Part shown: positions 50,642-63,667 of the stretch, one piece after another | How positions within the stretch are numbered: the stretch's first letter is position 1 | Layout of the letters: the number at the start of each line of letters is the position of its first letter | Source: Flavobacteriales bacterium CG_4_9_14_3_um_filter_40_17 | GTDB lineage: Bacteria; Bacteroidota; Bacteroidia; Flavobacteriales; Flavobacteriaceae | Reading direction: 5' to 3' | Length of the DNA stretch: 64,000 nucleotides | Assembly (NCBI GenBank): GCA_002790195.1 | Contig: PFUR01000058.1 | Coordinates: forward strand, 1-64,000 | The notes under the pieces: model-generated | Database searches by the model: none | What the model was told of the DNA's origin: nothing | The model's input: only the letters and a program-made list of their open reading frames with translations | Translations under genes and position numbers: made by a program

Positions 50642-51778
50642 TTATTCCCATGCATCCAAATACCGTTGTGCGATAATCAAATAGTGGTGTTCTTTTTCGA
50701 TAAAAGCACGTGCCCGCTTTCCCATCGAGATTATTTCCTCTGGGTTTTCAATCAAGAATGAAAGTTCTTTTACCAATGAACCCACATCCGGAACCGCGTT
50801 AACCGCTACTCGCTCCGAGAGCCTATAGTGTTCCATAAACTCCGTTTCTGCACCGGTGAAAACCACTTTCCCCTTTGCCATGGCTTCAAGCGCGTTATAA
50901 CCTTGATCGTAAGCGTACACTTGATCTAAAACCAGGTGCGCCAAGTTGTATGCATGAATGTAACAGGCATAAGGCAGGCTTTCGGCAACAATAATTTCGA
51001 TTTGATTGATATATTTTTTCAGAATGATATCGAGTGCTTCTTCAAAATATGAGTTGCCTTTTTTGAGATAGTTTATTCGATTGATTCCGTGAAAAATAAC
51101 GATTTTACCTTCCATTTTTAAGGTCTCATGCTTTATAACATCCACGTTGACGGGATTCGGAATTAAAAAAGTTTCATAGGCCGTTTGTTTCATTGGAAGC
51201 AAATAATCTAAATCAGAAACTATCATCTTATTGACGCTTTTCTGAACAAAAGTGAACAAGTCGCGATAAGGTTTGGTTACATATTTGAGGCTGTATTTGA
51301 ATTTATTTTTTATTTCAGGATTTTCCAAAACAGGTGTCAATGCAGAACGTTTCAGTTTGTTTTGCAGTTGTATTTCCACCACGGGCGTTTCGTCTCCACA
51401 GATGAGCAAGAAGATTTTTTTATTTTGCTTAAATAGTCTTTTATAAAGCTTGATTTGCCAACCGGGGAATGTTTCAATGGCGTTTGAATTGACGAGTTGC
51501 ACACAGTCAAAATCTTTGAGTTTGGGCAACAACAACCAAAAACGAATCGCAGTTTCGAGCATGGACAAATCGATTCCCGTCAATCTGAAAACCACTTTTT
51601 TCAAAACCACAAAAAAAATATTTTGGGAAAACAACACCGGCGCATACGAAAAGTCGGATGGATAATTCTTAAAGTTGTCACCCGCCGAAACAAGCACCAC
51701 TTCCTGTCCCAATCGAAGCAATCCCTCTTTGAGTGAGTTGTGCAACCTGCTGTATTCGCCGACCAAGAGTATCCGCAT
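50642..51778 (-). CDS. Glycosyltransferase, GT-B fold
   Basis: A 378-residue protein; ATG at 51778 begins at MRILLVGEYS, the typical start of a GT-B N-terminal domain (an upstream ATG at 51817 would add 13 unrelated residues). The C-terminal donor domain has IFHGINRINYLKKG and the acidic stretch AYDQGYNALEAMAKGKVVFTGAETEFME, similar to the E-x7-E region of GT4 enzymes. Donor and acceptor are unknown. It is a soluble cytoplasmic protein, head-to-head with a GT2 gene whose start is only about 20 bases away. Confidence 0.8.
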   Translation of the reverse strand: MRILLVGEYSRLHNSLKEGLLRLGQEVVLVSAGDNFKNYPSDFSYAPVLFSQNIFFVVLKKVVFRLTGIDLSMLETAIRFWLLLPKLKDFDCVQLVNSNAIETFPGWQIKLYKRLFKQNKKIFLLICGDETPVVEIQLQNKLKRSALTPVLENPEIKNKFKYSLKYVTKPYRDLFTFVQKSVNKMIVSDLDYLLPMKQTAYETFLIPNPVNVDVIKHETLKMEGKIVIFHGINRINYLKKGNSYFEEALDIILKKYINQIEIIVAESLPYACYIHAYNLAHLVLDQVYAYDQGYNALEAMAKGKVVFTGAETEFMEHYRLSERVAVNAVPDVGSLVKELSFLIENPEEIISMGKRARAFIEKEHHYLIIAQRYLDAWE

Positions 51779-51792
51779 TACGCCTTGTTTAG

Positions 51793-51800
51793 TATCTTTG
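51793..51800 (+). promoter_or_regulatory. Perfect -7 box TATCTTTG at the start of the GT2 gene
   Basis: TATCTTTG overlaps the proposed TTG start at 51798. If this box is used, transcription would begin near 51807 and the gene would start at TTG 51816 or later. It has no -33 TTG at proper distance. The box and the divergent ATG at 51778 are 15 bases apart. Confidence 0.3.
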
Positions 51801-52664
51801 ACCAAATATACAGACAAATTGGCTGACCGTTATCAAACATCCGATTTAGAAATTTTGGTTTCCACCCAAAACCAAACCGATTTTTCGTTTTTGGAACGGA
51901 TGTTTCCGTTTGCGCCCTATCAACAATTTAATATTTTGATAATCAACCAAACATCCGTAAAGCAGGATTTAATTTCGGGCTTCTCAACTATCCGCGTCAT
52001 CAATTCGGCAGAAAAAGGCTTGTCGAAAAGCAGGAACTTGGCCCTGAAAAACGCCGTCAAAAAAATTGTCCTGATTGCTGATGATGATGTGGTTTACAAA
52101 GCAGGTTTTGATGCGAAAATTGTGGAGACGTTCAATAAAAACCCTGATGCTTCCGTGCTGAATTTCCGAACAGAAACTACCGAAGGCAAATTGTTTTGGG
52201 ACTATCCAAAGACACAAAATAAACTAAACATCAAACAATTAACAAAAGTGCTATCCATCGAAGTTGCTTTCAAAACAGCCGATATCAGAAAATCTCAATT
52301 GTGCTACAACGAACATTTTGGCTTGGGTGCGCAATTTGAAGATTCAGAGACATTTTTCTTTTTGCGCGCGGCTTTTCACAAGAAATTGAGTGTACTTTTC
52401 CATCCGGAAACCATCGTGATCCACGCATCGGTTACTTCAAGCGATGAACTAGAATCTGACCGCAAAATTTATGCAAAAATGGCTGGCCATCAAAAGCGGT
52501 TTGGTATTTTTTCCTATGTTTTATTAGTTAAATATATTTTCTTTTTGAGTCGGAAGAAATTTATCTCATTGAAAGAAATAAAACCTAAATTTATCATCGG
52601 ATTGAATGGAATCAGAGACTATCAAACCATTTCAAATGAATTTTCAGACCAAAAATATGACTGA
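51798..52664 (+). CDS. Family 2 glycosyltransferase
   Basis: The GT2 nucleotide-binding start LEILVSTQNQTDFSFLERMF lies a short way into this frame. The DxD motif is in IVLIADDDVVYKAGFD, preceded by GLSKSRNLALKNA. The open frame extends back to 51675, antisense to the preceding gene, but no ATG fits; TTG 51798 gives 288 residues and TTG 51816 is the alternative. The start is therefore uncertain. It overlaps the FdtA-like gene by 8 bases, so the two form an operon. Acceptor and donor are unknown. Confidence 0.72.
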   Translation: MTKYTDKLADRYQTSDLEILVSTQNQTDFSFLERMFPFAPYQQFNILIINQTSVKQDLISGFSTIRVINSAEKGLSKSRNLALKNAVKKIVLIADDDVVYKAGFDAKIVETFNKNPDASVLNFRTETTEGKLFWDYPKTQNKLNIKQLTKVLSIEVAFKTADIRKSQLCYNEHFGLGAQFEDSETFFFLRAAFHKKLSVLFHPETIVIHASVTSSDELESDRKIYAKMAGHQKRFGIFSYVLLVKYIFFLSRKKFISLKEIKPKFIIGLNGIRDYQTISNEFSDQKYD

Positions 52665-53079
52665 AACTTATCTCAACGGACTTGTTAAAAGCATCGAACT
52701 TCCCAAAATACATGACCCGCGAGGAAATATTTCTGTCGTGGAAAAAAACATCATCCCCTTTGACTGCAAAAGGGTCTATTACCTCTACGATGTGCCAAGC
52801 GGAGCTACCCGAGGTGGCCATGCACATCAAGAACAACTCGAAATTTTAATTGCCGTATCCGGGAGTTTTGATGTGGTCTTGAACGATGGACAAGAACAAG
52901 TGAAAATTCATCTGAACCGTCCCAATTTCGGTTTGTTGATCCGACAAGGGGTTTGGCGCGAATTGGAAAACTTTTCTTCCGGCTCGGTTTGCTTAGTTTT
53001 GGCTTCCGAAATTTTTGAGGAAGCTGATTACATACGTGATTTCGAATCGTTTAAATCATTTAAAAACCGAGTTTCCTAA
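52657..53079 (+). CDS. FdtA/WxcM-like sugar 3,4-ketoisomerase cupin
   Basis: A 140-residue cupin. ATG 52657 overlaps the GT2 stop by 8 bases and starts close to the conserved SIELPKIHDPRGNISVVEK. The core RVYYLYDVPSGATRGGHAHQEQLEILIAVSGSF and the NFGLLIRQGVWREL block match dTDP-6-deoxy-hex-4-ulose 3,4-ketoisomerases. These supply dTDP-3-keto-6-deoxysugars for aminotransferases. No rmlA/rmlB or aminotransferase gene lies nearby, so either those are elsewhere or the protein has a different substrate. It ends 24 bases inside the convergent GT gene. Confidence 0.8.
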   Translation: MTETYLNGLVKSIELPKIHDPRGNISVVEKNIIPFDCKRVYYLYDVPSGATRGGHAHQEQLEILIAVSGSFDVVLNDGQEQVKIHLNRPNFGLLIRQGVWRELENFSSGSVCLVLASEIFEEADYIRDFESFKSFKNRVS

Positions 53080-53982
53080 ACCAAACTGAGCTGCTGCATT
53101 TTTCAATAGAACAAACAGGCTTAACACCGTAACCGGCAATTTTAAAATGATTTTTCTTTTTAAACTCAAATTTTCAACATCAATTTTTTCTATGGTCTTC
53201 GCGAAGGCTTCATTGTCTCCGATAAGCCTCTGTTTAACTGCCATCGAAAAGCGGTTGTAATCCAAGAATTTATTCAGCAAACGATTTGACTTTTCATCTG
53301 CTTCAAACTTTTTAAAATCGGTCAGCAAATGATAGTTTTTGGACTGATGAGACAAACTTTGAGAGTCGAGAACATAAGTTGCCAATGGCATATTCAAAAA
53401 AACAACTTTATTTTCTAAGCCGATGCGTATCCACATATCGGTATCCTCTGCGTTTTTTATTGTCTCATCAAAAACACCCACTTTTTTAAACACTTTTTGA
53501 TGAAAAACTGCCGATGAGCTACTCAAGACAGTATGTTTCATACTGGCTTTGAAATAGTTAACCACAGTTAATTTATCCTTGTTATCAATCGAATACCGGG
53601 CTGTAAAAACACGTCGCGGAGTTTTTAATTTAATCGCCGATGCAAAAACATTTTGATCTGGAAAAGATTCAATAAGCTGTTTCATCTGATTCAGAAAATC
53701 TGCATCCCAAAAATCGTCAGCATCGATAAAGGCGATATAGCATGTTTTGGATTGATTAATTCCAAAATTCCTTGCTGCTGAAACGCCCTCATTTTTTTTT
53801 AAAAAATAACGTATTCTTTGGTCTGAAAAAGATTGGACAATCGCTTCGCTCCGGTCTGTAGAACCATCGTTGATAATCAGCAACTCAAAATCACCAAAAG
53901 ACTGGTTCAGGACACTTTCTATTGTTCTTTTGATAAACTTTTCTTTGTTGTACAGCGGAATGATGACTGAAAAAAAAGGCAT
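53056..53982 (-). CDS. Family 2 glycosyltransferase
   Basis: A 308-residue GT-A enzyme with FFSVIIPLYNKEKFIKRTIESV at the N-terminus, ELLIINDGSTDRSE, the DxD motif in YIAFIDADDFWDADF (about 88-102), and NAEDTDMWIRIG in the acceptor region. The C-terminal 40 residues include a hydrophobic stretch (LPVTVLSLFVLLKN) that may tether it to the membrane. It lies 5 bases downstream of another GT2 gene. The last 24 bases overlap the FdtA-like gene tail-to-tail. Confidence 0.88.
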   Translation of the reverse strand: MPFFSVIIPLYNKEKFIKRTIESVLNQSFGDFELLIINDGSTDRSEAIVQSFSDQRIRYFLKKNEGVSAARNFGINQSKTCYIAFIDADDFWDADFLNQMKQLIESFPDQNVFASAIKLKTPRRVFTARYSIDNKDKLTVVNYFKASMKHTVLSSSSAVFHQKVFKKVGVFDETIKNAEDTDMWIRIGLENKVVFLNMPLATYVLDSQSLSHQSKNYHLLTDFKKFEADEKSNRLLNKFLDYNRFSMAVKQRLIGDNEAFAKTIEKIDVENLSLKRKIILKLPVTVLSLFVLLKNAAAQFGLGNSVFK

Positions 53983-53987
53983 AGGTT

Positions 53988-54875
53988 TTAATAATATATA
54001 TTACAAAAATATCCCAACCGGTATAAATCAAACAGTAGCAAGGATGGGTTTTTTCCCAATAGATTCTTTTCCAATTGTTTTCGATTGATACAAAACACAA
54101 AGTCAACCCACTTGATCATTCTTAACTTTTTAACTGTCAGAAAAGTGTGGTATAATTTATTTTGAGATTTAAAATCCGGGTTGTTTTGGTAAAACAGTAA
54201 AAGCGATTCAATGGCTTCCCTGCTTTTCTTGAGAAAAACTTTGTTGTTTTCTAAGCCTAAATGAATCGCCGGATTGTCAATGTGCAAAATTGGGGTTTTA
54301 TGTTTTAAAAATTCAGAAGCTATCAAATTATCCGAGCCGTAAGACGGTGTTTTTAGTTGTGACAACAAATCAATGTAAACCGCTTTCCGGATAAGATAAT
54401 TGGCCGAAATAAAAACCCGGTACGGAAACCGGTTTCGTTCACGCGCCGAGACAGATTCGCGCTTTCTGCCAAATTCCCAACGCAGCGAAAATTGACTCTC
54501 CGGTTTAGCTTGCGGATATGAAAATCCACCCATTACCACATCAAAAAATTGACTGAAATAAATCAGGTAACGGTTTAAAAAATGTTCACCAGCCGGAAGC
54601 ACATCTGCATCTAAAAACAGTAGCCACGGGTATTGAGCCGAGGCGGCCAAACGATTTCGGGTAGCGAGCCGGCCACTGTTTTCGGAGTTTTCCAAATAAA
54701 CAACCTTTTCCAAATTTGCCACATTCCGATTCAAACTTAAAAGTTTTTCATCCGTTGAGCCATCATCGCAAACGATGATTTCGAAATCTACAGCAAGCAA
54801 TTTTGCCTGTTTGTGCAATAGCTGGACAAGGGGTAAAACATCGACATTATAGACCGGGATCAAGACGGAAAACAT
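53988..54875 (-). CDS. Family 2 glycosyltransferase
   Basis: A 295-residue GT-A enzyme; ATG 54875 puts the fold at once (MFSVLIPVYNVDVLPLVQLL), while ATG 54926 would add 17 residues. Motifs are EIIVCDDGSTDEKLL, the DxD in WLLFLDADVLPAGEHFL (about 83-99), and the acceptor-side YGSDNLIASEFLKHK. No membrane segment is seen. It starts 88 bases after the outer-membrane barrel gene and precedes the next GT2 by 5 bases, suggesting co-transcription of the pair. Confidence 0.86.
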   Translation of the reverse strand: MFSVLIPVYNVDVLPLVQLLHKQAKLLAVDFEIIVCDDGSTDEKLLSLNRNVANLEKVVYLENSENSGRLATRNRLAASAQYPWLLFLDADVLPAGEHFLNRYLIYFSQFFDVVMGGFSYPQAKPESQFSLRWEFGRKRESVSARERNRFPYRVFISANYLIRKAVYIDLLSQLKTPSYGSDNLIASEFLKHKTPILHIDNPAIHLGLENNKVFLKKSREAIESLLLFYQNNPDFKSQNKLYHTFLTVKKLRMIKWVDFVFCINRKQLEKNLLGKNPSLLLFDLYRLGYFCNIYY

Positions 54876-54963: not shown

Positions 54964-56691
54964 TTAAAAATCAAATTTATAGGCCGCACCGGCCATCACC
55001 TGAATTCCCTGCACTTCAAAATTGGTGAATCGTTCGTAATCTTGCCCGGTTAAGTTATTGATCTTCCCGAAAAAAGAAAGTTGCGAGCTGTATTGATAAT
55101 TGCCTCGAAGATTGATATCTAAGTAGCTGTCTAAGGTGATTTTTTGAGTCGGAAAGTTTACGTCTTTGGATTGAAACAAATCAAATCGTTCACCCACGTA
55201 AAATATTTCCGCGCCAAATTTCCATTTGGTGTCAAACTGATAATCTCCTTTGAAAGTGATTTTTACATCGGGTAAATTCCATGCTTCTTGTTCTCTATCG
55301 GTCGAATAATCGAGAAATTCAGCTTGCAAAAGCAAATTAAACGGTTTCCAATCGGCTTGCAAAGCTCCCGAGAAAGTAAAAGTTTCAATATTATCATAAA
55401 CCACCTCAAACGAATTGCCGTATTGGTAGCCTTCGGTTGGGTCGATAGAGTTCAGTTGATTGAGCCTATACAAAGCTTTGTCGTGGTCTTTTCGGTAAGC
55501 TGCTTTGACGTTATACGAAATTTGCGAGGTAACTTTTCCTTTCAATCCCGCGTATAAATCATACCGATTGTCGGTCGGTTTGATAATCAGGGTTGGAGAA
55601 ACGAAGAAATTGTTTTGCACGAATTGATAATAACTGTTTTGATGCAATCCGCCTTCCAAACCGCCATAAAGCCAGATAATATCACCGGCAGGGCGGTAAG
55701 ATGCCCTGATTTTCGGGTAAATGTAAAAACTGTTGTCGTTGTTGTCGGTATCGGTACTATAGAAAAGGGACAGACCCAATTCGGCTGAAACATTGCCAAA
55801 ATCGTATTGATAAGTTGGTGTGTACCCAATGTTAACGATGTTGTAAGAAAGCTCGGTGGTATTGTCGAAATTGCGGTCGAAACTTCCGTTCAAATAATCC
55901 AAAACCACCCGGTGATGCAAAAGATAATCGGACACATGCAGGTTAAAATCAATGGAGCCTTTCAGGTTGTGTTCCGAACTGCTAAAATCGTCAAAAAAAC
56001 CTTGGTAAGCGGCATTGATTTTTTCAATAGGAGATTCGCTGTAAAGTAATTCACCTCCGGCAGCGATGCCAAAATAGGTATGCGATTCGTCAATCGTGTC
56101 GATGGCTTCGGAAGGCAAAGTCAGATTTGGCAATCCATACCAATTGTAGTTTTGGTGTTGCACTTTGAAATAAGCCGATTGCATACGGTCGCGTTCTTCA
56201 TTGATAAAATCGGCTCCAATTTGGGTATCATAAAATTTATCATCCAATTTGATACCGCTGATGCCTCCCTGCGAAGAAAGATGGTTTAGGTAATAAGACA
56301 AACTCTGTTGCCTGCTCAAATCCCAATTTCCGTAGAAATTGCCATCCACATTGCCAAAACTCCCGATGCCCAACGAGGCAAAATGGCTGTAAAGTTTCTC
56401 GCGTTTGGGCCTGGGCGGAGCGGTCGGTTTGGCTTTGGCAGGAACAAAAGTAGAAGCCACAGGAAAGTTTAGGAATTGGTATAAAATCTTTCTTTTTTCG
56501 ATTTTCATCGAGTCAGAAACAGGCAACTCGCGAAGTTTGGTGACTTCCTGAAGCGTGGGTACATAGGGTTTTTCTACCCGGATGATTTCGGTTTCCATGT
56601 TCTTTTTCTCTTCCGGTTTGACTTGTGCAAAAGTCAACGTCGTGCAAAAAATGAATATAATCAGGCCGTAAAAAACGTGTCGGGTCATCAT
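54964..56691 (-). CDS. Outer-membrane beta-barrel protein without a TonB plug domain
   Basis: A 575-residue protein; MM at 56691/56688 starts a signal peptide (MTRHVFYGLIIFIFCTTLTFAQ). Residues about 25-110 are a proline-rich periplasmic stretch (EKPYVPTLQEVTKLREL, PAKAKPTAPPRPKRE). From about 115 to the C-terminus are alternating amphipathic strands ending in the aromatic GAAYKFDF, a standard barrel C-terminus. No plug domain or TonB box is present, so the common label TonB-dependent receptor for such proteins is doubtful. The TPR gene ends 10 bases upstream. Confidence 0.75.
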   Translation of the reverse strand: MMTRHVFYGLIIFIFCTTLTFAQVKPEEKKNMETEIIRVEKPYVPTLQEVTKLRELPVSDSMKIEKRKILYQFLNFPVASTFVPAKAKPTAPPRPKREKLYSHFASLGIGSFGNVDGNFYGNWDLSRQQSLSYYLNHLSSQGGISGIKLDDKFYDTQIGADFINEERDRMQSAYFKVQHQNYNWYGLPNLTLPSEAIDTIDESHTYFGIAAGGELLYSESPIEKINAAYQGFFDDFSSSEHNLKGSIDFNLHVSDYLLHHRVVLDYLNGSFDRNFDNTTELSYNIVNIGYTPTYQYDFGNVSAELGLSLFYSTDTDNNDNSFYIYPKIRASYRPAGDIIWLYGGLEGGLHQNSYYQFVQNNFFVSPTLIIKPTDNRYDLYAGLKGKVTSQISYNVKAAYRKDHDKALYRLNQLNSIDPTEGYQYGNSFEVVYDNIETFTFSGALQADWKPFNLLLQAEFLDYSTDREQEAWNLPDVKITFKGDYQFDTKWKFGAEIFYVGERFDLFQSKDVNFPTQKITLDSYLDINLRGNYQYSSQLSFFGKINNLTGQDYERFTNFEVQGIQVMAGAAYKFDF

Positions 56692-56701
56692 GGATAGTCT
56701 G

Positions 56702-59700
56702 TTAGTTTTTTTCGTTTTCGATAGAGGAATTCCTTTCTTCTTCTTTTTTCTTGATGGAATCGAGCAAGGATTTTGCTTCATTGACCGCAACAGGATAATC
56801 AGCAAAATTTTGAATCACATTTTCGAGTATGAAAGTTGCCTGAAAAGCATCGTTGAGTGCATCAAAATTTTTTGCCATCAAGATCAATCCTTTCACACCG
56901 GTTTCTTTATATCCGGCATAGTCTTTCGCCAACTTTTGGATAAGTTTGTTGGATGCCTCATATTGCTTGTCTTTATTTTTATAGAAAGCGGCTACATACA
57001 AAGCTTCCGATGCCACCGAGCCCGATTTGGAATTTTCCAATTCTGTAAAATATTTTTTTGCCAAATCATCCTTTCCGGTTGCAAAAGCGTTTCTGGCCAG
57101 CAAAATTTTTGCATCGGTTTTGGCGTTTGCATCTGCTTTGCTGTTTTCTAATACTTTGTTTGCATAGTTTAGTGCTTCCTGCGTATTGCCTAAGGACATT
57201 GCCGCTTTCATGATGTTTGCTTGGGCAAAAATAATATTGTCAGAAGTTTGCGCCGAAGTCTCTAATTTTTTAAGGTTTTCGAGAGCCTTGCTCCAATCTG
57301 ATTGTTCTAAATATCCCTTTGAGAGTTTGGCCAGCGCATCTTCTGTAAATTCATTTTGCCCTTTGTTGATTATGTTTTGAAAAAACGGGACAGATTTAAG
57401 AAACTCCTTTTTCTCGTAAAAATAATCAGCCAAACGCGCGTTGGCTCTCAGAGCGTGGATTCCATTCGGAAAACGGCTCAAATAGGACGCATACGCATCC
57501 ATCGCCTTTGGATAATTTTGATCTGCAAATCGTTTTTCAGCCGATTCGAACAGCGTGTTTTCGATTTCCATATCAGACAGATTGACAAAATTGAGTGTCT
57601 TGGCCCAATCGGTGTATTCGGCACCTCTTCCCAACTCAACATAAGCCAATCTGGCACCGGAAACCGCTTGTTGTGCTTCGGGCGTATTTGGAAAATCGGT
57701 TGCTATCTTTTTATAAACTGCGATTGCTTTTTCATTCTGTTGATTATTGAAATAAATCAAAGCTTTTTTGAGCATGGCTTTTGGGACATAACTGCTCATC
57801 CGGTAACCAGAAATCAACAAATCGTAAGTTTCGATGGCGGAATCAGTTTGTTTGGTATTCAAATATATATTGCCGAGTTCGTACATCGCATCATCTCGCA
57901 AAACGGATTTGGGGTATGAATTGATGATTTTTAGCAAGGATTCTATTTTGCTGTCATTCCTATCGAGCAATCCGTAACTCAGTGCTTTGTGAAATTCAGC
58001 CACATCAGTATCCGGTATGTTAAGCGCGATGGCTTGGTTGTATTGCTCCAAAGCCAACCAATATTTGGTAAGCGCGTAGTAGCTGTCGCCCAAACGAAGG
58101 TGCGCATCGCCCTTTTTGTCAGCATCCAAACCGCTTTGCGACAGGTATTTCAAGAGATTTTCTGCGGCATTCTCATAGTTTTTTAATTGAAAATAAGCAT
58201 ACCCGATTTGGTAATAGATATTATTAAATTCGGGGGTTAGATTGGCCTGCGGAAGTACTGAAAATTTGAGATAACCGTCCAAAGCGGCATCCCATTTGCG
58301 GTTCAGGTAGTCAGATTCGGCTTTCCAAAAAACAGCTCTGGCCAGATAAACCGGGTCGCGCGACTCGCCGATGGATTGATTGAAAAGTTCGTAGGCTTGT
58401 GGCAACTTATTTTCATTAAATAATTCAACTCCGTGCAAAAAAGTAACTTTCTGATACACCACGCGGGTTTCTGCTTTGTTGTTTTTCTTTAAAAAATTGA
58501 GTGCATCCACATAATTCTTCGAAGTAACGTACGAATCCAAAAGCAACAATTCCATTTCTTTGGTTTCGGGATGTTTGGGATATTGATTGATAAAATCTGC
58601 CAAAACCTGTTGTACATTTTGGTAAATATTTCCGATATCATAACTCAATTTAGCGTAATTTAAGGTAGACTCTTCACGGATTTTCGGATTAAAATTCATG
58701 TTGCTTGCCGACTGGAATGCGTTACGTGCTTCTTGCTTTTTATCGAGTTTCAGATAGGCTTGCGCCAAGTGATAATAGGCATTTTGTGCGACCGCGTTTT
58801 TGCCTTCTATGATTTTATTAAACTGATTGATGGCATTTTCATAATCGTTTTGCTTGAAATAGGCAAAACCCAATTGATACCAATCGGTGTTGCTGAACTT
58901 GCGGTTTTTCCCCTTGTAGCCATTCAAATAGGGAATAGCTTGTCCATATTGTTTCAGATTGAAGTAGCTTTCTCCAATGATTTTAGAAAGCTCCGATTTC
59001 TCGACCGGAGTTGAACGTGGCAATTGACTGACTGCCAGATCAATCGCTTTTTGAAAATTGCCCAACTTAAAGTTCATATCCGCTTCAAAATAGTTGAGCT
59101 TTTGCTTGTAATTAGGGTCATTTTCAATTTTAGAAAATTGAGAAGAAGCCTCGGCATAATTTTCATTTTCGTATGCGATGTAACCCACATAATACGAAGC
59201 TTGGTTGCCATACTCGGACGATTGCATAATCTTTTTGAAAGCACTCTCAGCTTGGCTGTATTTTTTTGCAGCAAAATTCGTGTATCCTACTTTGAAGAAA
59301 TAGATATCCCGATCATTGGGATTGACCATGCTTGGGTCTGTTTTGTTAAACCATTTGAGCGCATACGAAAAACGTGCGTTGTCGAAATAATAATTTGCCG
59401 CATCTAAATAGGCTTGGTCACGTTTGACACTCGAAGGATGTTTGGCTACAAATGCCTCAATTAATTCCCCTGCATTCTGCCTGTCAAGACGAACAGCACA
59501 ATTGGCGATGTAATAATCACATTCGGCAGCGATTTCTTCTGGTGGATCTGTTCGTATTATACTTCTAAACAAAGATTGAGCAGCCGCATATTGTGAATGT
59601 CCATACAAAGCCTTGGCTCTTTCAAATCGAAACAATTCATCGGTGTAGGAAATAGATTGTTGAGCAGAAAGTGCCAAAAAAAACAACAGAAGCAATGGCA

Positions 59701-59728
59701 GGAAAATCTGTACTTTAGATAATTTCAT
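56702..59728 (-). CDS. Large exported TPR-repeat protein
   Basis: A 1008-residue protein; ATG 59728 gives a signal peptide (MKLSKVQIFLPLLLLFFLALSAQQ). Nearly all the rest is tetratricopeptide repeats, recognisable as alternating helices such as AYFKQNDYENAINQFNKII, AYYHLAQAYLKLDKKQEARNAF and YELGNIYLNTKQTDSAIETYDLLI. It ends in a charged lysine/glutamate tail. It likely scaffolds proteins in the periplasm; its partner is probably the barrel gene 10 bases downstream. A candidate promoter is present upstream. Function is unknown. Confidence 0.88.
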   Translation of the reverse strand: MKLSKVQIFLPLLLLFFLALSAQQSISYTDELFRFERAKALYGHSQYAAAQSLFRSIIRTDPPEEIAAECDYYIANCAVRLDRQNAGELIEAFVAKHPSSVKRDQAYLDAANYYFDNARFSYALKWFNKTDPSMVNPNDRDIYFFKVGYTNFAAKKYSQAESAFKKIMQSSEYGNQASYYVGYIAYENENYAEASSQFSKIENDPNYKQKLNYFEADMNFKLGNFQKAIDLAVSQLPRSTPVEKSELSKIIGESYFNLKQYGQAIPYLNGYKGKNRKFSNTDWYQLGFAYFKQNDYENAINQFNKIIEGKNAVAQNAYYHLAQAYLKLDKKQEARNAFQSASNMNFNPKIREESTLNYAKLSYDIGNIYQNVQQVLADFINQYPKHPETKEMELLLLDSYVTSKNYVDALNFLKKNNKAETRVVYQKVTFLHGVELFNENKLPQAYELFNQSIGESRDPVYLARAVFWKAESDYLNRKWDAALDGYLKFSVLPQANLTPEFNNIYYQIGYAYFQLKNYENAAENLLKYLSQSGLDADKKGDAHLRLGDSYYALTKYWLALEQYNQAIALNIPDTDVAEFHKALSYGLLDRNDSKIESLLKIINSYPKSVLRDDAMYELGNIYLNTKQTDSAIETYDLLISGYRMSSYVPKAMLKKALIYFNNQQNEKAIAVYKKIATDFPNTPEAQQAVSGARLAYVELGRGAEYTDWAKTLNFVNLSDMEIENTLFESAEKRFADQNYPKAMDAYASYLSRFPNGIHALRANARLADYFYEKKEFLKSVPFFQNIINKGQNEFTEDALAKLSKGYLEQSDWSKALENLKKLETSAQTSDNIIFAQANIMKAAMSLGNTQEALNYANKVLENSKADANAKTDAKILLARNAFATGKDDLAKKYFTELENSKSGSVASEALYVAAFYKNKDKQYEASNKLIQKLAKDYAGYKETGVKGLILMAKNFDALNDAFQATFILENVIQNFADYPVAVNEAKSLLDSIKKKEEERNSSIENEKN

Positions 59729-59746: not shown

Positions 59747-59781
59747 CAAAGATAAATAGATGCACCTACCTATAACGACAA
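59747..59781 (-). promoter_or_regulatory. Candidate promoter of the TPR/barrel operon
   Basis: On the minus strand TATCTTTG (59747-59754) is an exact -7 box, with TTG (59779-59781) 24 bases upstream, one base beyond the usual spacing. The box is 18 bases from the TPR gene ATG at 59728. Confidence 0.45.
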
Positions 59782-59890: not shown

Positions 59891-61336
59891 ATGTTGCAAC
59901 TCCTCCGAAAAAAATCCGGGCTTATACTCGGTCCGTTGGTATTTATTCTCATTCAACTTTTTTTCAAACCCGAAGGATTGAGCCCGCAAGGCATAGCCGT
60001 GTTGGCTTGCACATTATGGATTGCGGTTTGGTGGATAACAGAAGCCATCCCGATTGCAGTTACTTCTATGTTGCCCGTAATTCTATTTCCGCTTACCGGG
60101 GCAATGAATATCCAAGACACAACTTCCTCCTTTGGGGATAAATACATTTTCTTGTACATCGGCGGATTTATCTTATCAATTGCCATCGAAAAATGGAGTT
60201 TACACAAACGCATCGCGCTAAACATCATCAATACCATCGGAACCAACAGCAGCAGCATCGTCTTGGGCTTTATGATTGCCACCGGATTTTTGTCAATGTG
60301 GATTTCAAACACGGCAACCGCCGTGATGATGATGCCCATCGGTTTGGCCATCGTCAAGCAGTTTGAAGATCATCCGGACACCAGGGAAAACGAAAACCTG
60401 ATTTTCGGAAAAGCTTTGATGCTTGCCATTGCATACAGCGCTTCGATTGGCGGAATCTGCACATTGATTGGGACACCGCCCAATGTAATCTTTGCTGGCG
60501 TAATCCAAAAATTTTATCATGTGGAAATTTCTTTTATGCAGTGGTTCAAAATCGGATTTCCGGTAGCCGTCGTGTTGATGGCTTTTTGTTGGTTCTATTT
60601 GGTCAAAATCGCATTCAAGTTAAACAAACAAAGTTTTCCCGGTGGAAAAGCTGAGATTCAAAGGCAATTACACCATTTGGGGGCAATAAAATTCGAAGAA
60701 AAAGTAATTTTTATTGTGTTTATTTTGACTGCTTTGGCATGGATTACGCGGGGTTTTGTCTTGTCTAAACTTATTCCCGGCATCGATGACACCATCATAG
60801 CCATGGTGGCTGCCATTGTCTTGTTTTTGATTCCTTCCAACAAAGAAAAAGGGCAAAGGTTGTTGACTTGGAAAGAAGCCGAGCGGCTTCCATGGGGGAT
60901 TTTGTTGCTGTTCGGTGGCGGGCTTGCTATAGCCGGTGGTTTCGAATCGTCCGGATTGGCAAGTTGGATTGGCAACCAGATTACCATATTTCATGGAGTC
61001 ACCCTGTTGGTATTGCTGATAATCATTGTCACCATGGTCAATTTTTTGACTGAAATCACGTCCAACTTGGCCACTACCGCCATGTTGCTTCCCGTGTTGG
61101 TGCCGGTGGCTGCGGTGCTCAACGAAAGCCCATATGTGTTGATGGTTGGTGCAACGCTGGCTGCTTCTTGTGCTTTTATGCTTCCGGTTGCTACACCGCC
61201 CAATGCCGTAGTTTTCGGTTCGGGCTATCTGCATATTCCCGACATGATCCGCAAAGGCTTTGTGATGAATCTCTTCTCTATCATTGTCATCGTTTTTTTT
61301 GTTTATTTTATCGTTCCATATCTTTGGAAGGGATAA
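59891..61336 (+). CDS. DASS/SLC13 family anion (dicarboxylate) symporter
   Basis: A 481-residue membrane protein with about 11-12 hydrophobic segments. The two SNT-type substrate motifs are visible as MWISNTATAVMMMPI in the first half and EITSNLATTAMLLPVL in the second, and SIGGICTLIGTPPNVIF and FMLPVATPPNAVVFGSGY are the paired re-entrant loops. This family carries sulfate, citrate, succinate or similar anions with sodium; the exact substrate is not readable. It is divergent from the TPR gene and has its own likely promoter. Confidence 0.9.
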   Translation: MLQLLRKKSGLILGPLVFILIQLFFKPEGLSPQGIAVLACTLWIAVWWITEAIPIAVTSMLPVILFPLTGAMNIQDTTSSFGDKYIFLYIGGFILSIAIEKWSLHKRIALNIINTIGTNSSSIVLGFMIATGFLSMWISNTATAVMMMPIGLAIVKQFEDHPDTRENENLIFGKALMLAIAYSASIGGICTLIGTPPNVIFAGVIQKFYHVEISFMQWFKIGFPVAVVLMAFCWFYLVKIAFKLNKQSFPGGKAEIQRQLHHLGAIKFEEKVIFIVFILTALAWITRGFVLSKLIPGIDDTIIAMVAAIVLFLIPSNKEKGQRLLTWKEAERLPWGILLLFGGGLAIAGGFESSGLASWIGNQITIFHGVTLLVLLIIIVTMVNFLTEITSNLATTAMLLPVLVPVAAVLNESPYVLMVGATLAASCAFMLPVATPPNAVVFGSGYLHIPDMIRKGFVMNLFSIIVIVFFVYFIVPYLWKG

Positions 61337-61495
61337 GTTTTAGAAACTATGGATTCTTTTAGAATATGAAAAAATATTGAAGTCAAAATACAAAATATCA
61401 ATCTTTTGGGAAATATTTGTTAGGCTTTGACCATTCATTAAACTGTTTTGTTAAAAATTTTTACTAAACTTGTTCGATTTTTAAAAAATCATCTT

Positions 61496-63667
61496 ATGCA
61501 GCCAAATCTCTTTAAACTTGTTCTCTTTTTATTGTTTCCGGCTCTACTCTTTTCCCAACAGAAAGATTTCTCTCTCGAAGAAATATGGTCGGGTGCGTTT
61601 CGAACCCAATCCATGCAGTCGCTCAACTCGCTCAACGATGGTCAGCACTACTCCGTTTTGGAATACAATCGGGCATCTCGTGCCTCCAAAATTGTCGTTT
61701 TTGATTATTTGACGGGTAGTCAAACAAGGGTTTTGATTGACGGGAAAGACTATCCCGAAGTGAAAGCTTTCGAGGATTACACTTTTAGTAAAGACGAAAA
61801 AAAATTGTTGCTCAGCACCGATTCCGAGCCCATTTTCAGAAGATCTTCAAAAGGCATTTATTGGGTATTTGATACCGATTTGCGAAAATTGTTTCCCGTA
61901 TCGGACAAACCCATTCAAGAACCTACTTTTTCGCCCGACGGAACCCAAGTTGCTTATGTGTATGAAAACAACCTATTTGTAAAAGAAATCGCTACAGGAA
62001 AAGTAACGCAAATCACTTTTGACGGCAAAAAAAACAGAATCATCAACGGTCTGACAGATTGGGTATATGAAGAAGAATTATCATTTGTGCGTGCTTTCGA
62101 TTGGAACCAAACCGGCGATAAAATTGCCTTTATCCGCTTTGACGAATCGGAAGTACCCGAGTTTTCGATGAGTGTTTTTGGGAAAGAATTGTACCCACAG
62201 GTGGAAACTTTCAAATATCCGAAAGCCGGGGAAAGAAACGCAACTGTTTCACTTCATATTTATGACCGCAACAACCAAAAAACATCTCAAGTCGATTTGA
62301 TCGATTACCACGATTTTTATATCGCGCGAATTGGCTGGACCAAAGAAGATAACACCTTGGCAGCCTTGATACTAAACCGCCACCAAAACCAAATCGATTT
62401 GCTTTTTGTGGATGGCAATACGGCACAGAAAAAACTTATTTTGAGCGAAACCGATAAGGCTTATATAGAGCAACCCGAAATGCCACCTTTTTTGGACGAT
62501 AACAGCTTTATCTGGAAGAGTGAACGCGACGGATTTAACCATTTGTATCACTTCGACAAAACCGGAAAACTTCTCAACAAAATCACCGAAGGCAATTGGG
62601 ACGAGACTTCCTTTTATGGTTTCGACCCAAAATCTAAACGAGTTTTTTATCAATCAGTGGAAAATGGGAGTATCAACAGAGATATTTATTCCATAAAACT
62701 CAACGGCAAAAACAAACTGCGGTTGTCATCCGAAACAGGAAGCAGCGATGCTGATTTTAGTGCGGATTTTTCGTATTTCATTCAAACCTTCACCAACAGC
62801 ACCACACCGCCCCGATACTCGCTTCACAGTGGTAAAGACGGCAAAAAACTGAAAGACATCAAAAACAATCAGGCTTTAGCGGACAAACTCAAAAACTACA
62901 ACTTACCCACCAAAGAATTTTCTACCCTCAAAGTGGACGATTACGATTTGAATATGTGGATGATCAAACCCGTGGATTTTGACCCCAAAAAAAAATATCC
63001 GGTATTCATGTACCAATATTCCGGACCGGGCTCGCAGATGGTTTCAAACGTTTGGAACAGCACGAATGACTATTGGTATTTCATGCTTGCACAACAAGGT
63101 TATATCGTGGCTTGTGTGGATGGCAGGGGAACGGGTATGCGCGGCGCGGACTTCAAAAAAATGACGTACAAAGAACTCGGAAAATACGAATTGGATGACC
63201 AAATCAACTCCGCTATCGAGCTGGGAAAAAGACCTTATATTGATGCATCCCGCATGGGTATTTGGGGCTGGAGTTTCGGCGGTTTTATGGCTTCAAACGC
63301 GATTTTTCAGGGTGCAGATGTATTCAAAATGGCCATTGCAGTAGCCCCGGTCACCAGTTGGCGGTTTTACGATACTATCTATACGGAGCGCTACATGCAA
63401 ACCCCACAGGAAAACCCCGGAGGCTACGACAACAATTCGCCCATCAACCATGTGGACAAGTTGAAAGGTGCGTTTTTGCTCGTTCACGGCTCGGCAGACG
63501 ACAATGTGCATGTGCAAAACTCCATGCAGATGATAGAAGCGCTCATTCAGGCAAACAAACAATTTGACTGGGCGATATATCCGGATAAAAATCATGGGAT
63601 TTTCGGCGGAAACACCCGGCTTCAGCTCTATCAAAAAATGACCCATTTTATCAAAGATAATTTGTAG
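61496..63667 (+). CDS. Dipeptidyl peptidase IV (S9B family), exported
   Basis: A 723-residue exported peptidase; ATG 61496 (not TTG 61448) gives a signal peptide ending near LLFSQQ. An eight-bladed propeller comes first, including the DWVYEEELSF motif whose paired glutamates bind the substrate N-terminus in DPP IV. The catalytic triad is S593 (GWSFGG), D668 (HGSADDNVH) and H700 (DKNHGIF). It removes Xaa-Pro dipeptides and should be periplasmic or surface-located. Nothing suggests an operon; an ORF6N-domain gene starts 4 bases after the stop. Confidence 0.93.
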   Translation: MQPNLFKLVLFLLFPALLFSQQKDFSLEEIWSGAFRTQSMQSLNSLNDGQHYSVLEYNRASRASKIVVFDYLTGSQTRVLIDGKDYPEVKAFEDYTFSKDEKKLLLSTDSEPIFRRSSKGIYWVFDTDLRKLFPVSDKPIQEPTFSPDGTQVAYVYENNLFVKEIATGKVTQITFDGKKNRIINGLTDWVYEEELSFVRAFDWNQTGDKIAFIRFDESEVPEFSMSVFGKELYPQVETFKYPKAGERNATVSLHIYDRNNQKTSQVDLIDYHDFYIARIGWTKEDNTLAALILNRHQNQIDLLFVDGNTAQKKLILSETDKAYIEQPEMPPFLDDNSFIWKSERDGFNHLYHFDKTGKLLNKITEGNWDETSFYGFDPKSKRVFYQSVENGSINRDIYSIKLNGKNKLRLSSETGSSDADFSADFSYFIQTFTNSTTPPRYSLHSGKDGKKLKDIKNNQALADKLKNYNLPTKEFSTLKVDDYDLNMWMIKPVDFDPKKKYPVFMYQYSGPGSQMVSNVWNSTNDYWYFMLAQQGYIVACVDGRGTGMRGADFKKMTYKELGKYELDDQINSAIELGKRPYIDASRMGIWGWSFGGFMASNAIFQGADVFKMAIAVAPVTSWRFYDTIYTERYMQTPQENPGGYDNNSPINHVDKLKGAFLLVHGSADDNVHVQNSMQMIEALIQANKQFDWAIYPDKNHGIFGGNTRLQLYQKMTHFIKDNL

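Follow-up and report, generated by a model that had tools for sequence, protein, structure and literature searches.

The Tol-Pal system holds the outer membrane in place and draws it inward during division, and other described envelope systems combine tetratricopeptide repeat (TPR) proteins with outer-membrane barrels. A TPR scaffold with an open barrel is the plan of AlgK/AlgE, TPR proteins serve the barrel assembly machinery (BAM, as BamD) and Slam, and Slam unites a TPR_Slam domain with a barrel of 14 strands in a single protein. Here, we describe a pair of genes for an exported TPR protein and an outer-membrane barrel in Flavobacteriales bacterium CG_4_9_14_3_um_filter_40_17 (family Flavobacteriaceae), within a stretch of 64,000 nucleotides (contig PFUR01000058.1 of assembly GCA_002790195.1, positions 1 to 64,000), referred to as the window. 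On sequence comparison the pair is real, old, and widespread in the Bacteroidota, and we lean toward reading it, from sequence and structure models, as the part of a Tol/Ton-type trans-envelope machine of this phylum that lies in the outer membrane and the periplasm. A compact Tol-Pal of Bacteroidetes has already been proposed in PorE, which is presented as one lipoprotein with CpoB-, TolB-, carboxypeptidase-, and Pal-like subdomains (PMC12204202), whereas the barrel and the TPR protein described here are separate and lie in an operon with motor genes in many lineages. PorE and the pair could act together.

The TPR gene and the barrel gene have the following features in the window:

56702..59728, reverse strand: exported TPR protein, 1008 amino acids (aa), ATG to stop; predicted all-helical TPR solenoid

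54964..56691, reverse strand: plugless outer-membrane barrel of the TonB-dependent transporter type, 575 aa, ATG to stop

56626..56691, reverse strand: barrel residues 1-22, a signal peptide predicted from the sequence

56512..56589, reverse strand: residues 35-60 of the barrel, conserved N-terminal peptide 1 of the mature protein; disordered by prediction and a candidate partner-binding box

56422..56481, reverse strand: conserved N-terminal peptide 2 of the barrel (residues 71-90, ..PVASTF.PAK..), preceding the first strand

54973..56385, reverse strand: barrel domain, strands 1-22 (residues 103-573), from the structure model

59747..59754, reverse strand: candidate -7 promoter element TATCTTTG, one motif match

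An earlier note on this DNA, made from the sequence alone, had described a 1008-residue exported TPR protein and a 575-residue barrel 10 bases apart behind a single candidate promoter, the barrel with a signal peptide and an aromatic C terminus, and two glycosyltransferase family 2 (GT2) genes following on the same strand after 88 bases. All of this holds. The promoter element is the one match to TAnnTTTG, which we take to be the -7-type promoter motif of Bacteroidota, 18 bases 5' of the TPR start codon; sigma-70-type sites in the region are no more frequent than expected by chance (21 versus 19.3 +/- 3.8 in shuffled sequences), and the two genes would be carried on one transcript. Signal-peptide-like starts open both proteins, each ending A22|Q23, with Q23 invariant across 27 barrels and 51 TPR homologues. 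The barrel ends in YKFDF and is the only barrel match in the window's genome; the first GT2 gene starts at an ATG at position 54875.

The same note held that the barrel has neither a plug nor a TonB box and that the label of a TonB-dependent transporter therefore does not fit. The absence of the plug is borne out, the absence of a TonB box should be stated less firmly, and the objection to the label is half right, as it fails for the barrel itself. The protein matches no Pfam family at an E value of 1 or below, and in NCBIfam it matches just the last strands of the vitamin B12 receptor, far below the cutoff. Its AlphaFold2 (AF2) model, built with 52 homologues, has a mean predicted local distance difference test score (pLDDT) of 79 and 22 strands by count (24 DSSP elements, with two broken strands merged). 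The top structural matches are BtuB and FhuA (Z about 22, 390 to 428 aligned residues), with BtuB at a Foldseek E value of 1.7e-19, a Z of 22.3, and a root mean square deviation of 3.0 over 390 aligned residues. A profile of 27 barrel homologues also matches the BtuB, enterobactin-receptor, and FpvA chains across the last strands, reaching an E value of 1.1e-6 for the C-terminal strands of BtuB. (One match to a phage sheath, at an E value of 0.41, was set aside as chance.) The plug domain (PF07715) was found in none of the 27 homologues and none of 45 deeper relatives, 72 proteins with the window's own included, and the same model hit 21 places elsewhere in the window's genome. Residues 20-97 of the AF2 model fall below a pLDDT of 50 and are predicted to be disordered, with no folded plug. 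As modeled, the protein is a barrel of the TonB-transporter type without its plug.

This N-terminal tail, predicted to be disordered, holds conserved stretches. Residues 35-60 average 3.51 bits of information per site versus 2.90 in the strands in alignment A3 and 2.27 versus 1.81 bits in the wider barrel set, alignment A1, in which five rows (L022-L026) were picked by gene position. Because these residues are conserved above the strands, the tail is probably a binding site. Residues 71-90 reach 3.99 bits in A3 and 1.94 in A1, the A3 value carrying a bias, as a pattern taken from this very stretch was used to scan the collection.

The TPR protein shows strong repeats in Pfam (TPR_6, E value of 7.5e-32), and its AF2 model is a continuous helical solenoid with a mean pLDDT of 88.2, a predicted template modeling score of 0.52, and 53 helices listed. 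Since the predicted mature N terminus has no cysteine, the protein is probably not a lipoprotein. Conservation is highest at residues 251-400 and 901-1000. The CpoB-type model TIGR02795 scores 169.7 bits (cutoff, 90.1), spread across seven generic-repeat stretches in a protein that many TPR models match. The type IX secretion TPR protein SprE/PorW was considered and rejected, its score of 79.5 bits being far below the cutoff of 250.

Conservation of gene order argues that the two genes belong together. A set of 60 Flavobacteriales genomes, counting the window's own, gave the barrel in 49 and the TPR protein in 55. Wherever both were found they are adjacent, on one strand, and with the TPR gene first (49/49), and the gap is below 300 bases in 48. 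Among the six genomes with the TPR gene only, the next frame is 562 to 588 aa long in five, and the sixth gene lies at a contig end. These frames have no significant phmmer match to the window's barrel, and we take them to be diverged barrels by their place, size, and N-terminal motif. In the best 80 of 575 loci confirmed from a public scan (the named loci), the pair lies within 300 bases in 76 and 493 to 672 bases apart in 3, with 1 at a contig end; loci labeled Flavobacterium (L070, L080, L086, and L096) hold the pair. Across the phylum, 79 of the 88 genomes with both genes have them adjacent, with gaps below 300 bases in 41 and of 305 to 1,908 bases in 38, the latter in part because a match was partial or a gene had been inserted. 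The rate carries a selection bias, as the rows were entered by hand (for the barrel, 101 of at least 249 matching genomes; for the TPR protein, 93 of at least 235) and the count omits the first-set genomes and most of the short matches to the barrel C terminus, probably ordinary transporters. Because adjacency is conserved, it is well supported by sequence that the TPR protein and the plugless barrel form a shared unit.

Some loci and genomes depart from this arrangement. In g55, a gene of 287 to 288 aa, PhzF-like by eye, lies between the TPR and barrel genes on the same strand (L121-L123), and a gap of the size of the inserted gene is present in ten genomes. In the phylum genomes of f31, the matches to both proteins are no more than weak (for the TPR protein, about 1e-11 to 1e-16 where listed). 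At the thresholds used, neither gene of the pair nor the linked TolA was detected in G006, a genome of 1.9 Mb from the same family as the window, and the barrel and the linked TolA were both undetected in G384, G418, and G448 (f98); joint loss of barrel and TolA in these four genomes is possible.

At many loci outside Flavobacteriales, motor genes lie next to the unit. In many other families the order is the pair, then a gene of the HU-CCDC81/SPOR type, then genes of the TolQ/ExbB, TolR/ExbD, and TolA/TonB types, all on the same strand. We fetched 56 loci outside Flavobacteriales for their barrel or TPR matches, not for motor genes, and recognized the barrel in 49. Of these 49 loci, 35 carry tolQ, tolR, or tolA on the strand of the barrel and no more than 7 kb downstream, and such motor genes occur in 17 of 23 families. 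The HU/SPOR-type gene is present in 38, tolQ together with tolR in 24, and all four genes in 19; since some of these loci also supplied sequences for the tolQ, tolR, tolA, and HU profiles, the HU/SPOR count is the softest. Pfam supports the identities in individual loci. For example, HU-CCDC81_bac_1, HU-CCDC81_bac_2, and SPOR are above the cutoff in L132 along with MotA_ExbB and ExbD, the transducer of this locus having no Pfam match, and L129 gives MotA_ExbB, ExbD, and TonB_C; the HU and SPOR scores in L127 are below the cutoff. A profile of 25 transducers finds TonB (E value of 1.1e-8) and then TolA (4.7e-6) as its top matches in PDB. In f37, the barrel lies with HU, tolQ, tolR, and tolA (L159 and L160), and the TPR gene has a separate location close to an aroA-like gene (L139 and L140); as with PhzF, the neighbor names FolC, gyrB, and aroA were given by eye. 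Two further loci, L176 (f43) and L177 (f49), have the TPR gene, a space of about 2 kb, and then HU, tolQ, and tolR, with no recognized barrel between; an unrecognized barrel may fill the space.

In the window's genome, a TolQ-TolR-TolA cluster lies on another contig (C82), one gene before a FolC-like gene. L132, which retains the longer operon intact, likewise has a FolC-like gene after TolA, and we therefore take the C82 cluster to be the same motor, split off from the pair in Flavobacteriales. In G009, another member of Flavobacteriaceae, the strand that carries the barrel also carries tolQ, 3.7 kb downstream (L195). The HU-type gene of the window's genome is on C55, and a second ExbB gene with two ExbD genes on C41 presumably forms the ordinary Ton motor.

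Co-occurrence across the class is consistent with a link between barrel and transducer. In a plain sample of 119 genomes, with thresholds of 1e-12 and 1e-8, the barrel was found in 107 and a TolA/TonB-type transducer in 111, with both in 103 and neither in 4 (Fisher p of 0.0035, uncorrected for kinship). The tolA gene lies less than 3 kb from the barrel in 12 of the 103 genomes, always on the same strand, where about 0.3 would be expected; 5 of these 12 genomes supplied rows of the transducer profile, leaving 7 independent. Nearly all of the 107 genomes with the barrel have a single full-length copy.

From these observations, the suggestion of the earlier note is partly supported, as a shared unit by gene order (49/49 in Flavobacteriales and 79/88 in the phylum). 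What that note missed is the larger system, in which a SPOR-type protein and a motor of the TolQ/TolR/TolA type share the operon in many other lineages. The undescribed complex is probably larger than the pair. In the machine that we favor, an inner-membrane proton channel of the TolQ-TolR type, encoded on another contig here, would drive a TolA/TonB-type transducer, the C-terminal domain of which would reach the outer membrane and pull the conserved flexible N-terminal peptide of the barrel. Since it has no plug, the barrel would be unable to act as a conventional gated transporter and would instead be a membrane anchor or force receiver. The TPR solenoid would bind the barrel, the transducer, or both and organize the periplasmic contact in the place of TolB/CpoB. 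The machine may work at the division site, in outer-membrane constriction or stabilization, as suggested by the SPOR-type protein in many longer operons and by an FtsE-type gene near the pair in Flavobacteriaceae. We infer physical contact and energy coupling to the motor; a role in division or tethering would be a longer step from the data.

Compared with Tol-Pal, the motor of the TolQ/TolR/TolA type (the 35 of 49 loci in other lineages), the periplasmic TPR protein, and the hints of a link to division through SPOR and FtsE are shared. However, a TolB propeller or Pal was not noticed by eye in the operons, for which no TolB or Pal profile was run, the outer-membrane partner is here an integral barrel of 22 strands, and the TPR protein is about 1,000 aa long, versus 263 positions in the CpoB model. 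A fuller version of the reading, which we offer tentatively and would not yet bet on, is that of a Tol-type machine of Bacteroidota with the plugless barrel in place of Pal as the anchor that TolA pulls, the TPR scaffold in place of TolB/CpoB, and a SPOR protein that directs it to the septum, where it would constrict and stabilize the outer membrane at division, the plug having been lost as a transporter became a force receiver.

A number of observations weigh against the motor-linked reading. No motor gene lies within 7 kb downstream at 14 of the 49 loci (f18, f19, f20, f21, f25, part of f24, and f40, the f40 locus ending at a contig end), and the pair and the motor are not in one operon in the Flavobacteriales loci that were read. 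The TPR gene is present without a recognized barrel at 7 of the 56 loci, L176 and L177 among them. Adjacency counts of the kind suggested in the earlier note also turned up separation, with the pair apart in 9 of the 88 phylum genomes (seven in f37, one in f56, and G111), and in G111, a member of Flavobacteriaceae, the two genes are 188 kb apart. Co-occurrence in the class is imperfect (4 genomes with the barrel only and 8 with the transducer only), and G359, G398, and G413 each have two full-length barrel homologues. The fold search with the TPR protein returned generic TPR solenoids. The ATPase gene of the FtsE-type cluster, which precedes the TPR gene in the opposite orientation in 69 of 79 named loci (median distance, 304 bases), may be linked by plain synteny; the one member scanned had TIGR02673 FtsE as its best match, at 245.2 bits and under the cutoff of 264.85, and no member of the cluster was found in the window between 44000 and 64000.

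Scoring for a TonB box was expected to support the coupling of barrel and transducer and failed to do so in the window's lineage. A position-specific scoring matrix was built from 21 boxes, picked by eye, of the genome's own transporters, and the best position within the first 75 mature residues was compared with shuffles. At p < 0.05, none of the 80 named loci scored (4 expected by chance) and 2 of 19 other Flavobacteriales did. Among deeper loci there were 12 of 49 (2 to 3 expected), several resembling ELPEVIVTGRE, and some of the best positions in these loci fall away from the box; this count omits L121-L123 of Flavobacteriaceae, none of which was significant and with which the group would number 52. 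In Cytophaga hutchinsonii, cellulose use and growth in PY6 resembled those of the wild type after deletion of genes annotated tolA (chu_0135) and tolB (PMC5891637). Genes of the phylum have thus been named tol before, and if chu_0135 is the linked TolA, this would weigh against the system being indispensable and against the motor being fully novel.

The same parts can be assembled into other explanations. The pair could be a transporter after all, in which the N-terminal tail or the TPR protein replaces the plug as a separate gate for the import or export of a substrate, energized by the linked Ton-like motor. A barrel of 22 strands nearest to BtuB and FhuA, linkage to a motor of the ExbB/ExbD/TonB type, and the TonB-box-like start of some deeper relatives would all suit it. 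We nevertheless consider it unlikely, as a barrel in 107 of 119 genomes of the class, nearly always as one full-length copy, fits housekeeping better than a nutrient. A reading of the gene lists by eye, for which no profile was run, also showed no SusD-like or other partner for substrate binding. Compared with TonB-dependent transporters, the barrel has no plug, its N-terminal peptide is not a clear TonB box in the window's lineage, and nutrient genes were not noticed beside it. Export of a glycan in the manner of AlgK/AlgE or BcsC, serving the adjacent GT2 genes, would match the plan of TPR scaffold and open barrel, the two GT2 genes after the pair on the same strand, and the presence of relatives of these genes within 10 kb in 41 and 35 of 79 named loci (the window not counted). 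This is highly improbable; elsewhere the GT2 relatives are mostly upstream and on the other strand, the barrels of AlgE and BcsC have 16 to 18 strands rather than 22, and Pfam Alginate_exp is unmatched by the window's barrel and hit by just 1 of 27 homologues, at an E value of 0.046.

A BAM- or Slam-like helper in the assembly of outer-membrane proteins or surface lipoproteins would make use of the known service of TPR proteins to both systems, and the BamD and YfiO profiles do score above their cutoffs (88.7 versus 81.4 bits, over 11 stretches, and 33.2 versus 25). However, generic TPR models match too, TPR_Slam is weak (22.8 bits, below the cutoff of 35.2), the linkage is to a Tol motor, and, unlike Slam, the system has 22 strands and two separate proteins. 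The paper on the BAM complex of Flavobacterium johnsoniae names BamA, BamD, BamG, BamH, BamM, and BamP and contains neither "TPR" nor "tetratricopeptide" in its text (PMC12611786); on that text, identity with a BAM subunit was rejected. We regard an assembly accessory as quite improbable. A machine like Agl-Glt/Nfs of Myxococcus, in which a TolQR-like motor acts via TPR proteins on barrels to move or export surface material, is described with the same kinds of parts, namely TPR proteins, an outer-membrane barrel, a TolQR-type motor, and a TonB-C-bearing protein (PMC3169522), and there are weak NCBIfam matches to GltJ (E value of about 1e-3) and the tails of AgmX/PglI (6e-4). Yet the predicted Glt outer-membrane proteins described there are small (GltH, 209 aa; GltA, 256 aa), and the Myxococcus set has an FHA-domain protein and other genes (PMC3169522), whereas no FHA domain was found in ten linked proteins scanned. 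No Glt TPR family was among the matches of the TPR protein, in a library whose content of such a family is unverified. We regard this explanation as improbable. PG1027/PG1028 of Porphyromonas gingivalis were also rejected as orthologues, PG1028 being reported as a major component of a band near 60 kDa, with an OmpA-like domain.

The genes around the pair vary. The GT2 genes lie downstream of the barrel in the window and in G001, a different gene follows it in G002, of the same genus, and a gyrB-like gene follows it in L022-L026. Considered as members of the unit, the GT2 genes were rejected on their position elsewhere and their absence after the barrel in G002; judged by gene order, they are not part of it and are neighbors by rearrangement. 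Positions 50642-54875 of the window hold a glycosyltransferase block with an FdtA-like gene (by eye) that adjoins the barrel gene, and relatives of this block adjoin the FtsE-type gene in loci such as L070, as if the pair were inverted relative to the block in the window. On the other side, genes for an SLC13-type symporter and a dipeptidyl peptidase IV-type peptidase (59891-63667) lie upstream of and divergent from the TPR gene.

Within the open-licence literature, with subscription journals and preprints outside this scope, we found no paper describing this operon and none in which Bacteroidota, TolA, and TolQ occur together as whole words. An operon of TolQ-TolR-TolA with a plugless barrel, a giant TPR protein, and a SPOR-type protein offers a concrete, testable alternative to Tol-Pal. 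If the reading is true, a transporter barrel would have been reused as a mechanical anchor.

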